A stretch of 64,000 bases of DNA from Pedobacter roseus (GTDB lineage: Bacteria; Bacteroidota; Bacteroidia; Sphingobacteriales; Sphingobacteriaceae). The notes beneath the pieces were generated by a model. The model was not told where the DNA came from. It searched no databases and saw nothing but the letters and a program-made list of their open reading frames with translations. Of this stretch, positions 6,818 to 45,351 are shown in pieces (position 1 is the first letter of the stretch; each line of letters begins with the position of its first letter). The position numbers were made by a program, and so were the translations under genes. Location of the stretch: the NCBI RefSeq assembly GCF_014395225.1, contig NZ_CP060723.1, positions 3,906,001-3,970,000 on the forward strand. The letters are read 5' to 3'.

Positions 6818-7311
6818 TGGAGGAAGAAAAAGATGGAAGATGTAATATGGATGATGGACTCGGATTCGCGATGAGACTTAATTTTTTTAACTGCTTAATG
6901 TTATAATAAAAATAAATAATTGGCTAAAGATTTATCACCATTAAGAAGTTAAGGGCATTAAGAAAAAGATGGAAAATGTAAAATGGATGATGGACTCGGA
7001 TTCGCGATGAGCCTTAATTTTCTTAACTGCTTAATGTTATAATAAAAATAAATAATTGGCTAAAGATTTATCACCATTAAGAAGTTAAGGACATTAAGAA
7101 AAAGATGGAAAATGGATGAGGGAATCGGATTCGTGATGAGCCTTAATTTTCTTAACTGCTTTAATGTTAGAATAAAAATGAATAATTGGCTAAAGATTTA
7201 TCACCATTAAGAAGTTAAGGACATTAAGAGAAAGATGGAAAAAAATGGAAGATGGAAAATGGATGATGGAATCGGATTCGCGATGAAAACCTTAACATTA
7301 TTAACTTCTTA
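6818..7311. repeat. Tandem array of about 136-bp hairpin-forming units
   Basis: Three full units and a partial fourth. The landmark ATGATGGACTCGGATTCG recurs at 6851, 6987, 7116 (as ATGAGGGAATCGG) and 7263, giving periods of 136, 129 and 147. Inside each unit CTTAATTTTCTTAACTGCTTAATG is followed about 40 bases later by CATTAAGAAGTTAAGG, an imperfect inverted repeat, so each unit can fold into one long hairpin. No coding frame runs through it. Confidence 0.85.
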
Positions 7312-7355: not shown

Positions 7356-7823
7356 CTAAGCGCCATTATAAAAACTGCTCAAAAACTGTAATGGTATATC
7401 AGACGGGGCTGTTTGATTACAATACTCCATGATTTCGTTTAAATTAAAGTGGCCCGATACGGATTGAAAAGTTTCATCGTCCGAATCTTCAAAACCCATG
7501 CTCCAACCGCTAAAAATGCATTGATCATACTTTCCGATCTGTAGCAAAACAACCGACTCATGCCGGCTATCAGTCATTATTTTTTTATAAAGCTTACGCA
7601 CAGTCCTTTCGTCACCTTCTAACAACTGCATAAATCTGCCTTTACTTTTGGTAATGGGCTGACCTTTCACATGTAATAAGATCCCGCTAATACCATTTTG
7701 TTGGTTAAAATCCCTGCTTTGATTAAGTAAAACCTTGATCATTTCTGCATCAAAGGCCTTACTTTCTACACTGCTGTAAATTAAATAGAATATTGGTGTT
7801 ATATTTTTATTGTCTGGTTCCAT
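7356..7823 (-). CDS. BLUF-domain blue-light sensor protein
   Basis: A 155-residue protein consisting of one BLUF domain (sensor of blue light using FAD) and a short C-terminal tail. The flavin-site residues are present: tyrosine in LIYSS (Y16), asparagine N40 before NGISGILL, glutamine in FMQLLEG (Q66), and the W107/M109 pair in GWSMGF. The family senses blue light through a hydrogen-bond change around the flavin. There is no output domain such as EAL or GGDEF, so it must act through a partner, as PixD-type short BLUF proteins do. It stands alone next to a tandem repeat array; no partner gene is recognisable nearby. Confidence 0.93.
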   Translation of the reverse strand: MEPDNKNITPIFYLIYSSVESKAFDAEMIKVLLNQSRDFNQQNGISGILLHVKGQPITKSKGRFMQLLEGDERTVRKLYKKIMTDSRHESVVLLQIGKYDQCIFSGWSMGFEDSDDETFQSVSGHFNLNEIMEYCNQTAPSDIPLQFLSSFYNGA

Positions 7824-8104
7824 AAGGCTATTAATATAATAATTATCAATTAATGTTTTTGATAAAAAAGCTGACTAATATGCTATTATTTTATTGGAAG
7901 CAACACATTAACAGCCAATTAAAATTAACATCTGATTACGCAAAATATTGATACACCGCAGCAAAATTTAATAATCATACTAAACATATTTTAAACTGTC
8001 AATGATCATAACCAAATAAAAACACCGTAAATTATTCGGTATAAAAATCTGAATGTGCTTTCTTGCCGTATATGTAATCAAATCCATAAAACCGGATCAG
8101 GCAG

Positions 8105-8422
8105 ATGGCGTCTCTTACTCAAAGACTTTTAATCATATTCATTCTCATCATCGCTTTTGCGGGAAGAATTGCGGTATCAGCCATTGCCAGCCAGAAATCT
8201 TCTCAGGTGATAGTTAAAGAAAACATGGGCAAATCAGAAAAACCGGATAGTGGTGAGAATGATGAGCAGATGGAAGAAAAAATGAAATTGGAAGACCTCA
8301 TTGTGCATGGTTTAACAAACATTGATTTTATGAGCATAGCCAGCACTAAAACTAAATTGTTTGCTGGTAATTATCAACTCCTTAATTGCACCCTAAAAAC
8401 CTTAGAGTACCCTCCTAAATAA
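8105..8422 (+). CDS. Small hypothetical exported or membrane-anchored protein
   Basis: A 105-residue protein I do not recognise. An N-terminal hydrophobic stretch (residues about 8-28, ending SAIAS) looks like a signal peptide or anchor. It is followed by a highly charged, glutamate-rich segment (about 40-62) and a C-terminal part without motifs. It lies 50 bases upstream of the DUF4394 lipoprotein gene on the same strand, so the two may be co-transcribed. The signal-like start and reasonable composition support a real gene, but there is no family evidence. Confidence 0.5.
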   Translation: MASLTQRLLIIFILIIAFAGRIAVSAIASQKSSQVIVKENMGKSEKPDSGENDEQMEEKMKLEDLIVHGLTNIDFMSIASTKTKLFAGNYQLLNCTLKTLEYPPK

Positions 8423-8472
8423 GGCTATCGAAGCCTAAAATTCACAATTTTCTTAATTAAACATTAAACTAC

Positions 8473-10002
8473 ATGATTAAAACTAAACATTTAATCATAG
8501 TGGCCCTATTGGCTATTATGACCCCTATTCTATTTTCTGCATGTAAGAAAGACAGAAATAACGATCCGGAACAAGAAACCCTTACTCCTGGCCCTGATGT
8601 TAATTTTTATGCGCTTACAGCGGATAGCAAATTATTATTGATCAATGCAAAAAATCCGAATTCAATCACCTCACAGGTAACAATTTCGGGTCTGCAGGCC
8701 GGAGAAACCATTTTAGGAATCGATTTTCGTCCTGCTACTGGTCAACTTTATGGCATAGGCAGCACCAGCCGTTTATATGTAATTGATCCAAAAACCGGAA
8801 CTGCGAGGTCTATCTCGGCGGCTCCATTTACGCCTGCCCTTAGCGGAACTTCGGTAGGTTTTGATTTTAATCCTACAGTAGATCGCATCCGCCTGGTTAC
8901 TTCATCAGGCCAAAACCTGCGTTTAAACCCTGAAACAGGAACTGTAGCTGCTACCGATGGCACCATAAATGGCGTAACCAACGCTAAAGTAGCATCGGTT
9001 GCCTATACTCAAAATAAAGCCGGGGCAAGTACCACCGTCCTTTTTGATATCGATATTGCAAATGATAAACTGCATAAACAAGATCCGCCAAATGACGGAA
9101 AACTGGTTGAGGTTGGAAGTCTTGGTTTTGATGCGGAAGAGATTGGCGGCTTCGATATTAACCCTGATGGCACCGCAGCATTAGCGGCATTAACTGTTGG
9201 GGGTAAATCTGGTTTATATGCCATTGATTTAAATTCGGGAAAAGCAGCTAAAATAAGTAATGTAGACCAACAGATTACCGGGCTTGCTATCCCTACCGAA
9301 CCTGTTGCTTATGCCGTATCGAATAATAATGAATTGGTGATCTTCAATCCAGTGGCTGCATCACCTGCATTGGTTCTTAAAGCCATTACAGGTATACAGG
9401 CAGGAGAAAGCATTTTAGGTATCGATTTCCGCCCGGTAAACGGACAACTTTATGCCGTTGGAAGCACCAGTAGAGTTTATACCATTAACGCTTCTTCAGG
9501 TGCTGCCGTAATGGTTGGAACCGGACCTTTAGCTACTTTATTAACAGCCACACAAATCGGATTTGATTTTAATCCAGTGGCAGACAGGATTAGAATAGTA
9601 GGTAACAACGGGCAAAATTTCAGGATAGTACCAACTGATGCTACCCTGGTTGTAGACACCCCTATTTCGCTGGGTACAGCAACAATTTCCGGTGCTGCGT
9701 ATACAAACAATTTTACTGGTGCAACTTCAACCGTATTGTTCGACGTAGATTCTACAACAGACCGTTTATATAAACAAGATCCACCAAATGCAGGAACATT
9801 GGTTGACGTAGGTGCGTTAGGGGTTAATATTGAAGCGAACAGTGGTTTTGATATTGGCGGTACCAGTGGCCTGGCTTATGGTATATTTACAGTAGGTGGT
9901 GTGCAAAAATTATATAGTGTAAATTTAACTACAGGCGCAGCCACCGCAGGCGCTACCATTAGTACAGCCGTACGTGGTTTTACACTGGGCTTAGGTTTTT
10001 AA
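8473..10002 (+). CDS. Lipoprotein with two DUF4394 domains
   Basis: A 509-residue lipoprotein. The signal peptide ends in a lipobox FSAC with the cysteine at about residue 23, followed by KKDRN. The mature protein is an internal duplication: two copies (about 45-280 and 285-509) each contain NSN-type starts ('FYALTADSKLLLIN', 'AYAVSNNNELVIFN'), then GIDFRPATGQLYGIGSTSR / GIDFRPVNGQLYAVGSTSR, GFDFNPTVDRIRLV / GFDFNPVADRIRIV and YKQDPPNAG. These are the hallmarks of DUF4394, a beta-propeller-like secreted domain of unknown role. Probably displayed on the cell surface. A strong terminator follows. Confidence 0.93.
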   Translation: MIKTKHLIIVALLAIMTPILFSACKKDRNNDPEQETLTPGPDVNFYALTADSKLLLINAKNPNSITSQVTISGLQAGETILGIDFRPATGQLYGIGSTSRLYVIDPKTGTARSISAAPFTPALSGTSVGFDFNPTVDRIRLVTSSGQNLRLNPETGTVAATDGTINGVTNAKVASVAYTQNKAGASTTVLFDIDIANDKLHKQDPPNDGKLVEVGSLGFDAEEIGGFDINPDGTAALAALTVGGKSGLYAIDLNSGKAAKISNVDQQITGLAIPTEPVAYAVSNNNELVIFNPVAASPALVLKAITGIQAGESILGIDFRPVNGQLYAVGSTSRVYTINASSGAAVMVGTGPLATLLTATQIGFDFNPVADRIRIVGNNGQNFRIVPTDATLVVDTPISLGTATISGAAYTNNFTGATSTVLFDVDSTTDRLYKQDPPNAGTLVDVGALGVNIEANSGFDIGGTSGLAYGIFTVGGVQKLYSVNLTTGAATAGATISTAVRGFTLGLGF

Positions 10003-10030
10003 GCTACCCAGCTCCCATTCATTTATAAAA

Positions 10031-10064
10031 AGCAAAAGCCTTTCAATCCTGAAAGGCTTTTGCT
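10031..10064 (+). terminator. Intrinsic terminator of the DUF4394 gene
   Basis: A 15-base perfect stem (AGCAAAAGCCTTTCA / TGAAAGGCTTTTGCT) with a 4-base loop, 28 bases after the stop codon. Confidence 0.9.
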
Positions 10065-10314
10065 TTAACTAATGTTTACGGTTTCTACTAAGAATTAATC
10101 CGCTTTGGTAAAAGTAAAACTTTAGTAAATAGCGCTATGTTCTGATTCACTTTATGAGCAAATGATGATAATTACATTAAAACAGGATTAGAATGGTTTA
10201 ATTATTTATCCAAACCGGTTAACTGACGATCAAAATTGATGTATTTATCTTCTGATTTGAGGAAATCAATGACACCGCTTACCAGACAGCTCTTTAATTG
10301 TCCTGTTTTTTATA

Positions 10315-10590
10315 CTTATTTCACCCTCGTTGGTACTTAATAAGTCCGGTTTCGAACTTATTTCACCCTCGTTGGTACTAAATAAGCTCGGTTTCGAACT
10401 TATTTCACCCTCGCTGGTACTTAATAAGCTCGGTTTCGAACTTATTTCACCCTCGTTGGTACTTAATAAGCTCGATTTTGAACTTATTTCACCCTCGTTG
10501 GTACTTAATAAGCTCGGTTTCGAACTTATTTCACCCTCGTTGATACTTAATAAGCTCGGTTTCGAACTTATCTTATCTTCTTTAGTATTA
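10315..10590. repeat. 42-bp minisatellite (six units plus a degenerate seventh)
   Basis: Units start at 10315, 10357, 10399, 10441, 10483 and 10525; a seventh, strongly diverged, begins at 10567. Each unit contains CTTATTTCACCCTCG, the palindrome CTTAATAAG and the palindrome TTCGAA. Because 42 is a multiple of 3, frames stay open on both strands as 14-residue repeats. The units are nearly identical with single-base variants. There are no unique spacers, so this is not a CRISPR. The rest of the interval (10065-10314 and 10591-10998) is AT-rich and shows no gene. Confidence 0.92.
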
Positions 10591-10998
10591 ATTCCACATA
10601 AAATCATACCATTCTACTTAGTTCATAATTAGTTAGCACTATAGCCCGGCATAAAGTATCAAACCGCTTATTAAACAAAGTTATTTAATGCTTCTTCAGC
10701 TTTATTAAAAAAGAATTGATCAATCTCTTAATTATTTCATTTCCCATGTAAAATTTCAATCGTTAGAACTGCTCTACAATCAAGATAAACGACTATAACG
10801 TAATATTAAAACCACACAAGCCGTATAATAATTTTACATTAGTATAGATAAGGCTTCAGAATTAAGCTATTGAGCACCAATACTTTATATACTGAAACGT
10901 AAAACTATGCGCTTTGGCCATATTCTAAACAAGGCTTATCAAAAGAATGATCAGATAAATAACCTGAATAAATCACTAACCAATTAATTAAAAAACTT

Positions 10999-12393
10999 AT
11001 GAGAAATGCAACAAAAACATGGCTTGGCACATTGCTGGCGCTTACTGTTCTTTATTCCTGTAAAAAACCGGAAATAAATCCTGAACAGCAAACCGATTTA
11101 TTTGAAGGCAAGAAAAAGGAAATGGCCGTTAGCCCGCTTATTGCGGGAACCTCCTTCAGGGTGGTAGGTTATATGCCTTCATGGGCCGGAGCAGTTAACC
11201 AAATTCAGTTTAGCAAACTTACTCACATAAACTATGCTTTTGTACTGCCAAATTCAACCGGTGGATTGCAACCTGTAGAAAACCCTTCCAAATTGCAAAG
11301 CCTGGTTAGCTCCGGGCATGCCGCAGGTGTAAAAGTGCTTATAGCTGTTGGCGGATGGAATAACGGGAATGATAGTGCCTTCGAAAGCCTGGCTGCAAAT
11401 TCAACCTACCGAACCAATTTCACCAATAATATGATCAGTTTTGTAAACCAGTATAACCTCGATGGGGTGGATATTGACTGGGAGTATCCGGATAATGGAA
11501 GCTCGGCCAATAACTACACACTCCTGATGCAACAGTTAAGCACAGCGATGCATAACAACGGAAAGCTGCTGACCGCAGCGGTAGTTTCTGAGAATGGCGG
11601 AAGTATCCAGAATGCTGTTTTTACCGCAGTTGATTTCCTTAACCTGATGGCTTATGATGGCGATGGCGCTAATCACTCTACCTATAATTATGCGGTAAAC
11701 TCGATCAATTATTGGCAAGGTAGAGGGCTTTCTGCAGCTAAAACCACTTTAGGAGTACCTTTTTATGGCCGCTCATCTTCTTCATACCTTGATTATAAAG
11801 ACATTCTTGCCCAGGGTGGAAATCCAAATTCAGATACCTTTGGCAACATTGGTTACAACGGCATTCCTACTATCAAAAATAAAACAAACCTGGCTTATGA
11901 CCGTACTGGTGGAATCATGATCTGGGACCTGAACGCGGATGCTACAGGGGGCAATTCGTTACTTAGTGCCATTAACGATGCCATAATTGCCCGTGTAAAC
12001 AATGGTGGATCGAGTATCCCGTATGGAACGGTAATTACCCTTAAAGGATTCAATAATAAATACGTCAACAGTCAGAACGGCACGCAAGCCATCACCTGTA
12101 CAAGCACAACAGCACAGGCCTGGGAACAATTTACCGTAGTAGATGCCGGCGGCGGTAAAGTGGCTTTAAGAAGTATGGGTAAATACGTATCATCAGAAAA
12201 TGGCACACAGGCCGTTACGTGTAACCGTGCCACCATCAGCGATTGGGAAAAATTCGACTGGGTGGTTGCAGCAGATGGCAAAATTGCTTTCAGGGGCAAC
12301 AATGGAAAATATCTTTCAAGCGAAAATGGTACACAAGCCATGACTTGTACCCGTGCTACTGCTTCAGGCTGGGAGTACTTTTCTAAAAACTAA
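10999..12393 (+). CDS. GH18 chitinase-like lipoprotein with fascin-like C-terminal domain
   Basis: A 464-residue protein. The signal peptide ends LYSC (lipobox C21). Residues about 52-330 form a glycoside hydrolase family 18 barrel: AVGGW at 116-120, the catalytic DGVDIDWE at 155-162 with general acid E162, MAYD at 217-220 and a closing MIWDLNAD strand. All GH18 catalytic residues are present, so it should cleave chitin or related beta-1,4-GlcNAc polymers. Residues about 340-464 hold three repeats of the form [15 protein letters not shown], matching the fascin-like beta-trefoil fold, probably for carbohydrate binding. Monocistronic with a long AT-rich leader. Surface location is inferred from the lipobox. 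Confidence 0.93.
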
Positions 12394-12435
12394 TGATAGA
12401 GCAGGCTAAACTTAACGGCTTTCTATCTAATCGTA

Positions 12436-12469
12436 AATTCATGCGGAATCATTCGGTTCTGCATGAATA
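12436..12469 (+). terminator. Possible hairpin terminator after the chitinase gene
   Basis: An imperfect stem ATTCATGC...GCATGAAT with inner GAA/TTC pairs, about 45 bases after the stop codon. The T tract after it is weak, so the role is uncertain. Confidence 0.35.
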
Positions 12470-12602
12470 ATTTCGAAAAATCCACATTAATTTATTATTA
12501 TCCGTTTATTAATCTGGCTCAGAACGCCCTATAATTGGCTCTTTTATACCTCATAAATACAGATTTGGTTCTATAGCTTTGATAAGAAAATAACACAAAG
12601 CC

Positions 12603-13049
12603 ATGAAAACAATATTTGATGAAACTGTTCGGATACAATTGATTGACCGGATTGAGACCCTTAATAAAAATAGTGTTGCTCTATGGGGAAAGATGAACGT
12701 TTACCAGATGTTGAAACACTGTAGGGTATACGAAGAAATGATGTTGGGCAAAAATAAATATCAACGTGTATTTTTAGGCAGGCTGTTCGGAAAAATGGCA
12801 CTCAAAGAATTTACACAGGATGATAGTCCGATCAAACAGAAAACGCCCACCCTTAGCCAGCTTAAGATCAAAGAAAAAAGCGGTGATATAGAAAGCGAAA
12901 GAAAAAAATGGATTGCCTTGCTGAATGAATATGCAAATCCTCAGGAGCATGAAATTGTACATTCTTTTTTTGGTAAACTAAACCAAGAGCAGGTTGGTCA
13001 ACTGGTTTATAAACATACCGACCATCATCTCCGCCAGTTTAATGCTTAG
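12603..13049 (+). CDS. DUF1569 domain protein (DinB-like fold)
   Basis: A 148-residue cytosolic protein of the DUF1569 family, a branch of the DinB/YfiT four-helix-bundle superfamily. Histidines that would be the metal ligands in this fold are in LKHC (about residue 39) and in the C-terminal HTDHHLRQF. The family's reaction is unknown; relatives are metal-dependent transferases. It stands alone, convergent with the Crp-like gene, whose end is only 22 bases away. The ATG at 12603 is the only good start. Confidence 0.82.
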   Translation: MKTIFDETVRIQLIDRIETLNKNSVALWGKMNVYQMLKHCRVYEEMMLGKNKYQRVFLGRLFGKMALKEFTQDDSPIKQKTPTLSQLKIKEKSGDIESERKKWIALLNEYANPQEHEIVHSFFGKLNQEQVGQLVYKHTDHHLRQFNA

Positions 13050-23530: not shown

Positions 23531-23618
23531 AATGATGGAATGACGGAATGATTGAATGACAGAATGATTGAATGATTGAATGATTGAATGATTGAATGAT
23601 TAAATGATTGAATGTTTA
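23531..23618. repeat. 8-bp microsatellite (GAATGATT)n
   Basis: Consecutive near-perfect copies of GAATGATT between the helicase and DUF1456 genes, with variants GGAATGAC and TAAATGAT at the edges. It lies within about 100 bases upstream of the DUF1456 start and could alter promoter spacing when copy number changes. Confidence 0.85.
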
Positions 23619-23637
23619 AAGTTATTAATGAACCAAA

Positions 23638-31383: not shown

Positions 31384-31479
31384 GAGGTGAGATTTGAGAG
31401 ATTAGACATGAGATGTGAGATTGGGCGTACAATTAGGGTTTAGGGTTTAGGGTTTAGGGTTTAGGGTTTAGGGTTTAGG
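31384..31479. repeat. GAGATTTGAGA-type repeat followed by a (TTTAGGG)n tract
   Basis: First a segment with GAGATTTGAGAGATTAGACATGAGA, a word also found at about 44928, 45270 and 57610. Then six perfect copies of AGGGTTT at 31435-31476. A single copy of the same heptamer sits at the matching place near 44972. The rest of the interval up to 31723 has no feature except a TATATTTG box at 31668-31675. Confidence 0.88.
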
Positions 31480-44566: not shown

Positions 44567-44697
44567 ATTTGGTTATATATAGCTTAGATATTTGAATTTA
44601 CGCATTTACAACCTAACAGCAAAGCGAAAAGTAAAACCTCAGCAACTAGCTGAAAATGAACCCATTTTAATAAAGCCATTTTATTTTCAGAAAATCA

Positions 44698-44985
44698 AGG
44701 CCTGTGTTCCATTTTAATGTCAGTCCCGCCACATGCTCATACGCCTGCAGGCCTTAAGCGCGGGGTCGGTATCCGCCATGTCGGGTTTAGCTTGATACGT
44801 TCGGTGCACAAACCTGAGTAAACTAAACCCGATGGCAGCGGTCCCGATTTTTCATCGGGATAAAGCGCACAGAGGGGCTTCCGGAACCGATTGACACCAT
44901 ACCCTGATTTCCAAAATGTAAAAACGAGATTTGAGAAGGTTAGACATGATATTTGAGATTGCGCGAACATTTAGGGTTTAGGGGA
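44698..44985. repeat. 344-bp repeat family, unit A
   Basis: Starts with GGCCTGTGTTCC, contains CATGCTCATACGCCTGCAGG, CCGCCATGTCGGGTTTAG, the CCCGATTTTTCATCGGG hairpin and GGAACCGATTGAC, and ends in the GAGATTTGAGA word and one TTTAGGG. The same landmarks recur exactly 344 bases later in unit B. Frames open across it are not credible genes. The stretch 44567-44697 before it shows no feature. Confidence 0.85.
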
Positions 44986-45041
44986 AATAATCCAGACAGA
45001 ACATTATGTTTTAAAACACCATTTTCTTTTTTCGAAAAGCA

Positions 45042-45304
45042 AAGCCTGTGTTCTATTGCAATTTTAGTACCGCCACATGCTCATACGCCTGCAGGCCTTA
45101 AGCGCGGGGCCGGTATCCGCCATGTCGGGTTTAGCGTGATACGTTCCGTGCACAAACCTGAGTAAACTAAACCCGATGGCAGCGGTCCCGATTTTTCATC
45201 GGGATAAAGCGCACAGAGGGGCTTCCGGAACCGATTGACGCAGAACCCTGATTTCCAAAATGTAAAAAAGATATTTGAGAAGGTTAGACATGAGATTTGA
45301 GACC
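45042..45304. repeat. 344-bp repeat family, unit B
   Basis: Near-identical second unit; AAACCCGATGG is at 44825 in unit A and at 45169 here. It ends in ATTTGAGAAGGTTAGACATGAG directly before the terminator of the permease gene. Confidence 0.85.
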
Positions 45305-45316
45305 TATGCCCATAAA

Positions 45317-45351
45317 AAAACCTTGCAGGTTTTGAGAACTTGCAAGGTTTG
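45317..45351 (-). terminator. Intrinsic terminator of the APC permease gene
   Basis: Stem AACCTTGCA / TGCAAGGTT, followed on the minus strand by a T7 run, 19 bases beyond the stop codon. Confidence 0.88.

Follow-up and report, generated by a model that had tools for sequence, protein, structure and literature searches.

Bacterial VNTR or minisatellite loci consist of tandem units of tens of base pairs that are homogenised and differ in length at orthologous sites. The array described here, located in a 64-kb window (the whole stretch of DNA that was analysed) of a Pedobacter genome, likewise has head-to-tail units in the ~10-100 bp range and a copy number that differs at the same site between species. 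It is unlike VNTR loci in general in that the variation is seen between species and that related units are present at unlinked sites.

The nearest analogue that we found is BrickBuilt of Porphyromonas gingivalis, which is described as a minisatellite/MITE with a single 23-nt unit at 19 sites, having a leader and a tail with small inverted-repeat ends and showing bidirectional promoter activity (PMC4596501). We regard the Pedobacter arrays as analogous to BrickBuilt, without claiming membership. The likeness extends to a location in Bacteroidetes, a tandem unit of ~20 bp without spacers, intergenic placement at several unlinked sites, differing copy number and a limited host range (PMC4596501). 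In contrast to the single 23-nt unit, the Pedobacter unit is 21 bp long and comes as two modules that form higher-order repeats, and two to three sites per genome were found rather than 19. As to a leader and tail with inverted-repeat ends, the Pedobacter arrays show a short leader likeness by eye (L146 and L152), and comparison with the relative G236 revealed no terminal repeats and no target duplication. As to promoters, the window array has no TTTG-N17-23-TANNTTTG motif nearby.

The TAACTGA heptamers also resemble the Pedobacter family as intergenic direct repeats of patchy distribution, some of them in Bacteroidetes, but their unit is 7 bp long and unrelated in sequence, and in the main genome studied they lie mostly just upstream of start codons (PMC4679880). 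We found no earlier description of the array family in the literature searched, and papers containing any of four short strings concerned other subjects, as judged by title.

The array and its 21-bp modules

TRF bears out the preliminary description of a 42-bp minisatellite, with 6.1 copies at 94% matches and a score of 467 (Table 1); this is far above dinucleotide shuffles of the whole 64-kb window, whose best score was 0 in 20 of 30 trials and 51-61 in 10. The six units share 90-98% pairwise identity (mean 94.4%). Two small palindromes had been ascribed to every unit; both are real, but each occurs in only five of the six as counted by eye, CTTAATAAG (arms CTTA/TAAG round one base) reading CTAAATAAG in unit 2 and TTCGAA reading TTTTGAA in unit 4. 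That account lacked the diverged units at both edges, the 21-bp period within the unit and the second array that this genome carries. The high-edge unit is matched by R1, a sequence-only model made from 18 of 26 listed segments (G000:C1:3916532-3916593, E 5.6e-14), and at the low edge positions 10298-10320 are identical at 20 of 23 bases to a diverged unit within the array that G042 has at the orthologous site (L150 from 3576).

Table 1. Coordinates of features at the window array and in its flanks (positions in the window)
Feature	Position	Strand	Basis or remark
Gene for DUF4394 protein, before the array	8473..10002	+	Pfam PF14339; used to locate orthologous sites
Long inverted repeat between the DUF4394 gene and the array, terminator-like by eye	10030..10066	+	Present in the six relatives compared
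526-bp block without counterpart in G236	10227..10752		Alignment edges and lengths
Diverged unit, low edge, TTGTCCTGTTTTTTATA before ACTTATT...	10298..10313 (approx.)		Sequence and comparison with G042
Homogenised array, A+B higher-order unit of two 21-bp modules	10314..10571		TRF, 21-bp parsing, shuffles
Diverged unit, high edge, AATTAATACTAAAGAAGATAA on the minus strand	10572..10592 (approx.)		21-bp parsing; model R1
Gene for GH18 glycosidase (chitinase-like), after the array	10999..12393	+	Pfam PF00704

Written in 21-base rows and compared with the arrays of relatives, the 42-bp repeat resolves into two 21-bp modules. Module A is a dyad, AATAAG-N12-CTTATT, with 12 variable bases and its CTTATT running across the row boundary; module B is AATAAGTATCAACGAGGGTGA and variants of it. 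The modules follow one another in the orders AB, ABB or longer, and at other intergenic sites of this genome (G000; one contig of 6,329,746 bases) and of two other Pedobacter genomes (G407 and G247) they build repeats of 42, 63, 105/106, 147 and 168 bp, with the 21-bp register common to the arrays of all three. A CRISPR array was considered and rejected, each 21-bp step of the window array proper being module A or B, without unique spacers.

A search of the genome for the unit, proposed in the preliminary description, located the second array of G000 at G000:C1, about 233,510-233,720. Two sites are present in G000, three in G407 and two in G247, one of the last a relic. G247 C7 has a 42-bp repeat in 5.6 copies and G407 C57 has repeats of 63, 105, 147 and 168 bp, while the repeat of G407 C10 is 106 bp long, so that much of this array drifts out of the 21-base rows. 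For L062 (Pedobacter miscanthi RS10) TRF reports two periods, 63 bp x 5.4 and 21 bp x 18.3; since a G407 array is identical to the L062 array (100% over 441 bp), we take G407 to be P. miscanthi, and from the agreement of a G236 relic sequence with L025 we take G236 to be P. jeongneungensis. In the longest non-overlapping set no ORF of at least 80 aa covers the arrays of L144, L145, L146, L148, L149, L150 and L152, consistent with an intergenic location.

G047 has a separate array with a 21-bp period (L147 3190-3370), with dyad-like units such as AATAAGTTCAAACTTGAAGAT. It is matched by neither R1 nor the HMM and we keep it outside the family, of which it is possibly a remote cousin. Short-period tandem repeats of the AATGA/CAATGAAC type occur at L062 4104-4573, L152 5266-5497, L144 4909-5016 and window 23531-23628, some of them near 21-bp arrays. 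TRF also reports repeats elsewhere in the window, of 136 bp x 3.1 (6824-7242) and 344 bp x 1.9 (44684-45329), and a perfect TTTAGGG x 6.7 repeat (31433-31479; TRF unit TTAGGGT). TTTAGGG is the plant-type telomere heptamer, and the likeness is probably a coincidence.

Orthologous sites and distribution in Pedobacter

The array was said to lie between two secreted-protein genes, and the products of the flanking DUF4394 and GH18 genes both start like secreted lipoproteins, by eye only. At this place (site 1) the array takes several states: six units in G000, a decayed array in G042, relics in G247, and none found in G236, G033, G407 and G279. Orthology rests on conserved gene order in G247 and G042 and on the start of GH18, which follows DUF4394 in G236, G033 and G407, all without an array. 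G236 is the closest relative compared; its flanks are close to those of G000 up to 10226 and from 10753, and between them it has 98 bp of other sequence against 526 bp, array included, in G000.

DUF4394 is present in 58 of the 145 genus genomes, and for the 37 best of these matches (34 together with the window, G247 and G042) we examined the interval that follows the gene. A 63-bp-unit HMM gives a strong match to the window and a weak one to G042 (E 0.0087), with none at E<=0.01 in the other 35 intervals; the G247 relics are visible by eye and have E 0.0019 with R1. A DUF4394 tree joins G000 to G236 as its sister (100/99) and places G247 beside the two (81/78, a weak value); G033 and G407 form another pair, and deeper forks are unsupported. 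Since the array is present in G000, G247 and G042 but not in G236, G033, G407 and G279, either losses or repeated gains are needed, and the 20/23-base agreement of the low-edge unit with the G042 unit would favour common descent with loss. The flanking genes persist without the array in relatives, so the array is presumably not essential for its neighbours. The preliminary description expected copy number to vary among strains; across the genomes compared here, one per species, it does vary between species.

A block at 10074-10194, after DUF4394 (GTTTACGGTTTCTACTAAGAATTAATCCG ... GATAATTACATTAAAACAGGATTAGAAT), shows few changes in all six relatives, with or without an array, and may be a small RNA or a regulatory element that lacks annotation. 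Its motif at 10165-10194 occurs in four of 59 genomes at <=3 mismatches. We considered whether this motif is part of a larger array element and rejected this, because it is kept in the intervals of the six relatives with or without an array and thus belongs to the intergenic region. A terminator scan of 9950-11050 reported none.

The second G000 array (site 2) lies between tRNA-Met and a gene for a 162-aa protein, with a START_2 gene beyond, a position that is also occupied by an array in G407. G236 aligns on the tRNA flank and on the START flank, but has no counterpart for some 1.3 kb with the array and the 162-aa gene (L152 3875-5198), except for 32 bp of AACCAATTTAAAC-type simple-repeat DNA. 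The span holds only 34-43 bp of AACCAATTTAAAC-type DNA in G042 and G279 and is wholly missing in G247; the unit HMM had no match in the site 2 DNA of G236, G247, G042 and G279. G048 is in agreement up to the end of its contig, and G325 is cut by a contig end. The 162-aa protein (L152 4455-4943) has no Pfam match, its gene is missing from G236 together with the array, and homologues are present in 19 of 145 genus genomes, including G000.

Across the genus, R1 at E<=0.01 matches nine of 145 genomes under strict filters that may lose weak matches. These are the arrays of G000, G407 and G247, the decayed array of G042, a single unit in G236, a part-unit that G325 and G048 share between one and the same pair of genes (E about 0.001), and matches in G313 and G052 that lie inside one and the same coding gene and look chance-like by eye. 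In a family-wide sample R1 matches 11 of 399 genomes, the two beyond the genus (G309 and G365) being borderline. BLAST of the window array against 99 relatives gave matches in G000 and G042 only. A 21-mer pattern with <=3 mismatches matches 37 of 399 family genomes, mostly at single 3-mismatch places, and reversed-pattern controls match too; a looser pattern matches 136 of 145 genomes, with controls equally high in most and raised counts in G032 and G474. A contig scan gave 52 stretches. Among the 15 whose flanks were viewed, L062 and L025 clearly carry the family, and L069 (Mucilaginibacter) contains a single A-like site, which the HMM does not report. Carriage by plasmids or phages was rejected, with no match for one G407 array among plasmids and phages and none for one exact pattern among viral contigs.

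Coding capacity, structure and promoter signals

The array is open on both strands, with a plus-strand ORF of 100 aa (NKLGFELISPSLVL repeats; 10330-10632) and a minus-strand ORF of 113 aa (SSKPSLLSTNEGEI repeats; 10266-10607), a feature that the preliminary description had singled out. It is expected and uninformative, because six tandem copies of a shuffled 42-mer leave at least one frame open on each strand in 72.7% (single-base) and 68.9% (dinucleotide) of 5000 trials each. That one strand encodes a repeat protein, SSKPSLLSTNEGEI on minus or NKLGFELISPSLVL on plus, would accord with two open frames of 100-113 aa and with both main frames being open in three of six arrays (window, G407 C6, G247 C7). 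Against this, such openness is expected by chance, both frames are broken by stops or frameshifts in the other three (G000 site 2, G407 C10, G407 C57), the array is absent from G236, and Pfam has no match for either array ORF.

The preliminary description had held that selection on a translated frame would count against its reading, and the substitutions do not point to such selection: SSKPSLLSTNEGEI frame changes comprise 11 synonymous, 33 nonsynonymous and one stop against 12.2, 31.3 and 1.5 expected, a comparison of limited power with 45 changes. No excess of synonymous changes appears in four frames across the six arrays, three reverse frames being equally flat; each distinct change was counted once per array, and G042, G247 C33 and G047 were left out. 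Third codon positions are most diverse, or tied, in four of six arrays by small margins, and across 64 B units first positions vary most. A repeat protein is therefore very unlikely, indeed close to negligible as an explanation, the frames being broken in half of the arrays and the 45 substitutions showing no protein-level constraint. Annotators should be aware that repeat ORFs like SSKPSLLSTNEGEI or NKLGFELISPSLVL are probably not genes.

Module A has a ten-pair dyad in which 87.8% of cells are paired over 18 units, a value reached by three of 500 shuffles, with the covariation score reached by two. Two pairs are changed on both sides (38 of 500 shuffles likewise), without any rise in the number of pair types (485/500). 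Because units within one array are kin, the pairing is suggestive only. RNAalifold gives a longer, weak structure (-7.0 kcal/mol) in which four of 17 pairs are changed on both sides in some sequence. A known RNA family was rejected: an Rfam covariance search of window 7800-13000 with E up to 1 has no match at the array and two below the curated score elsewhere. A promoter array was also rejected, there being no TTTG-N17-23-TANNTTTG match near the array, and sigma-70-type matches in 9950-11050 being no more numerous than expected (four found, 4.0 expected).

An array that binds protein or adopts a DNA structure has a slim chance of being the explanation. As 21 bp is two helical turns, each unit would offer the same face to a bound protein, and the constant 21-bp register of most arrays and the dyad in module A are in keeping with this. 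So, weakly, is the low variation at several positions (e.g. G6, A12 and G17) among 64 B units, a set in which the search pattern fixed five other positions and limited most, and in whose table two of the 26 segments, L144:2971 and L144:3077, do not keep the register. However, tandem duplication alone preserves register, the 106-bp repeat of G407 C10 breaks it, and close relatives lack arrays.

Homogenisation and possible origin of the arrays

The high identity of the units had been read as recent expansion, and local homogenisation is borne out. In six arrays (6, 4, 4, 4, 5 and 5 units; G042, G247 C33 and G047 left out) 39-base units are 0.76-0.99 identical within arrays and 0.67-0.88 between them. 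Window units are 0.93 identical to one another and 0.74-0.88 to those of the five other arrays, and their likeness to G407 C6, which is not orthologous, is higher (0.88) than that to the other G000 array (0.81). In G000 site 2 identity within the array (0.76) is not above that to several other arrays.

We consider it likely that the array belongs to a noncoding family of intergenic minisatellites whose unit is 21 bp, present in a minority of Pedobacter genomes and changing mostly in multiples of 21 bp; the best reading of this family is a lineage-restricted, locally homogenised minisatellite without a known job. A seed able to form a hairpin (inverted B - A - B) may start the arrays, which would then grow, shrink and homogenise mostly by 21-bp multiples, slipped replication or unequal recombination being the simplest candidate mechanism. 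Higher-order repeats of 42, 63, 105/106, 147 or 168 bp would result in different places.

As to such a seed, four of six arrays have their highest outer-arm complementarity in the first A unit that was measured, and in G247 C7 this unit ties for the highest value; the true first unit of G407 C6 misfits the pattern and was left out. As single-stranded DNA the leaders of L146 (z -4.6) and L152 (z -3.1) fold better than all 200 shuffles, those of L144 (z -1.1) and L145 (z -1.0) are not significant, and three internal array stretches have z of -1.95 to +0.31. In a MITE-like element, of the kind proposed for BrickBuilt, a hairpin seed or short leader would transpose and afterwards expand into a minisatellite. 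Such an element would account for the several unlinked intergenic sites per genome, for the tendency of inverted outer arms to be in first A units, and for the leaders of L146/L062 and L152/L002 that are alike by eye (GATCTT..GAAG..CTGTTTRATACTTAATAAG). We think it unlikely: by eye, comparison with G236 reveals neither a clean insertion nor terminal inverted repeats nor a target duplication, the site 2 array is missing there together with its neighbouring gene, and the plasmid, phage and viral-contig searches were empty for the two queries given above.

The minisatellite reading draws on the anatomy, the several sites per genome, the orthologous sites of differing length or with no array, and the lack of a detected coding sign. 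Several observations stand against it: the consensus shared between non-orthologous sites of different species (0.88 for the window and G407 C6) is not easily put down to drift at isolated sites and hints at spreading, exchange or constraint, the module A dyad is kept across arrays with different core letters, G000 site 2 has no higher likeness within the array, three arrays keep both main frames open, third codon positions are most diverse or tied in four of six arrays, and two of the four leaders folded are not significant. It is a long shot that a hairpin-seeded Pedobacter family places 21-bp (two-turn) protein-binding arrays intergenically, to be rebuilt in 21-bp multiples, as a lineage-specific chromosomal or regulatory element.

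As a minisatellite family, the arrays offer a small clear case of a bacterial minisatellite gaining higher-order structure and vanishing, since close relatives show the same modules in sites that are fresh, decayed, reduced to relics or empty, and the array is a possible length marker for this group of Pedobacter.
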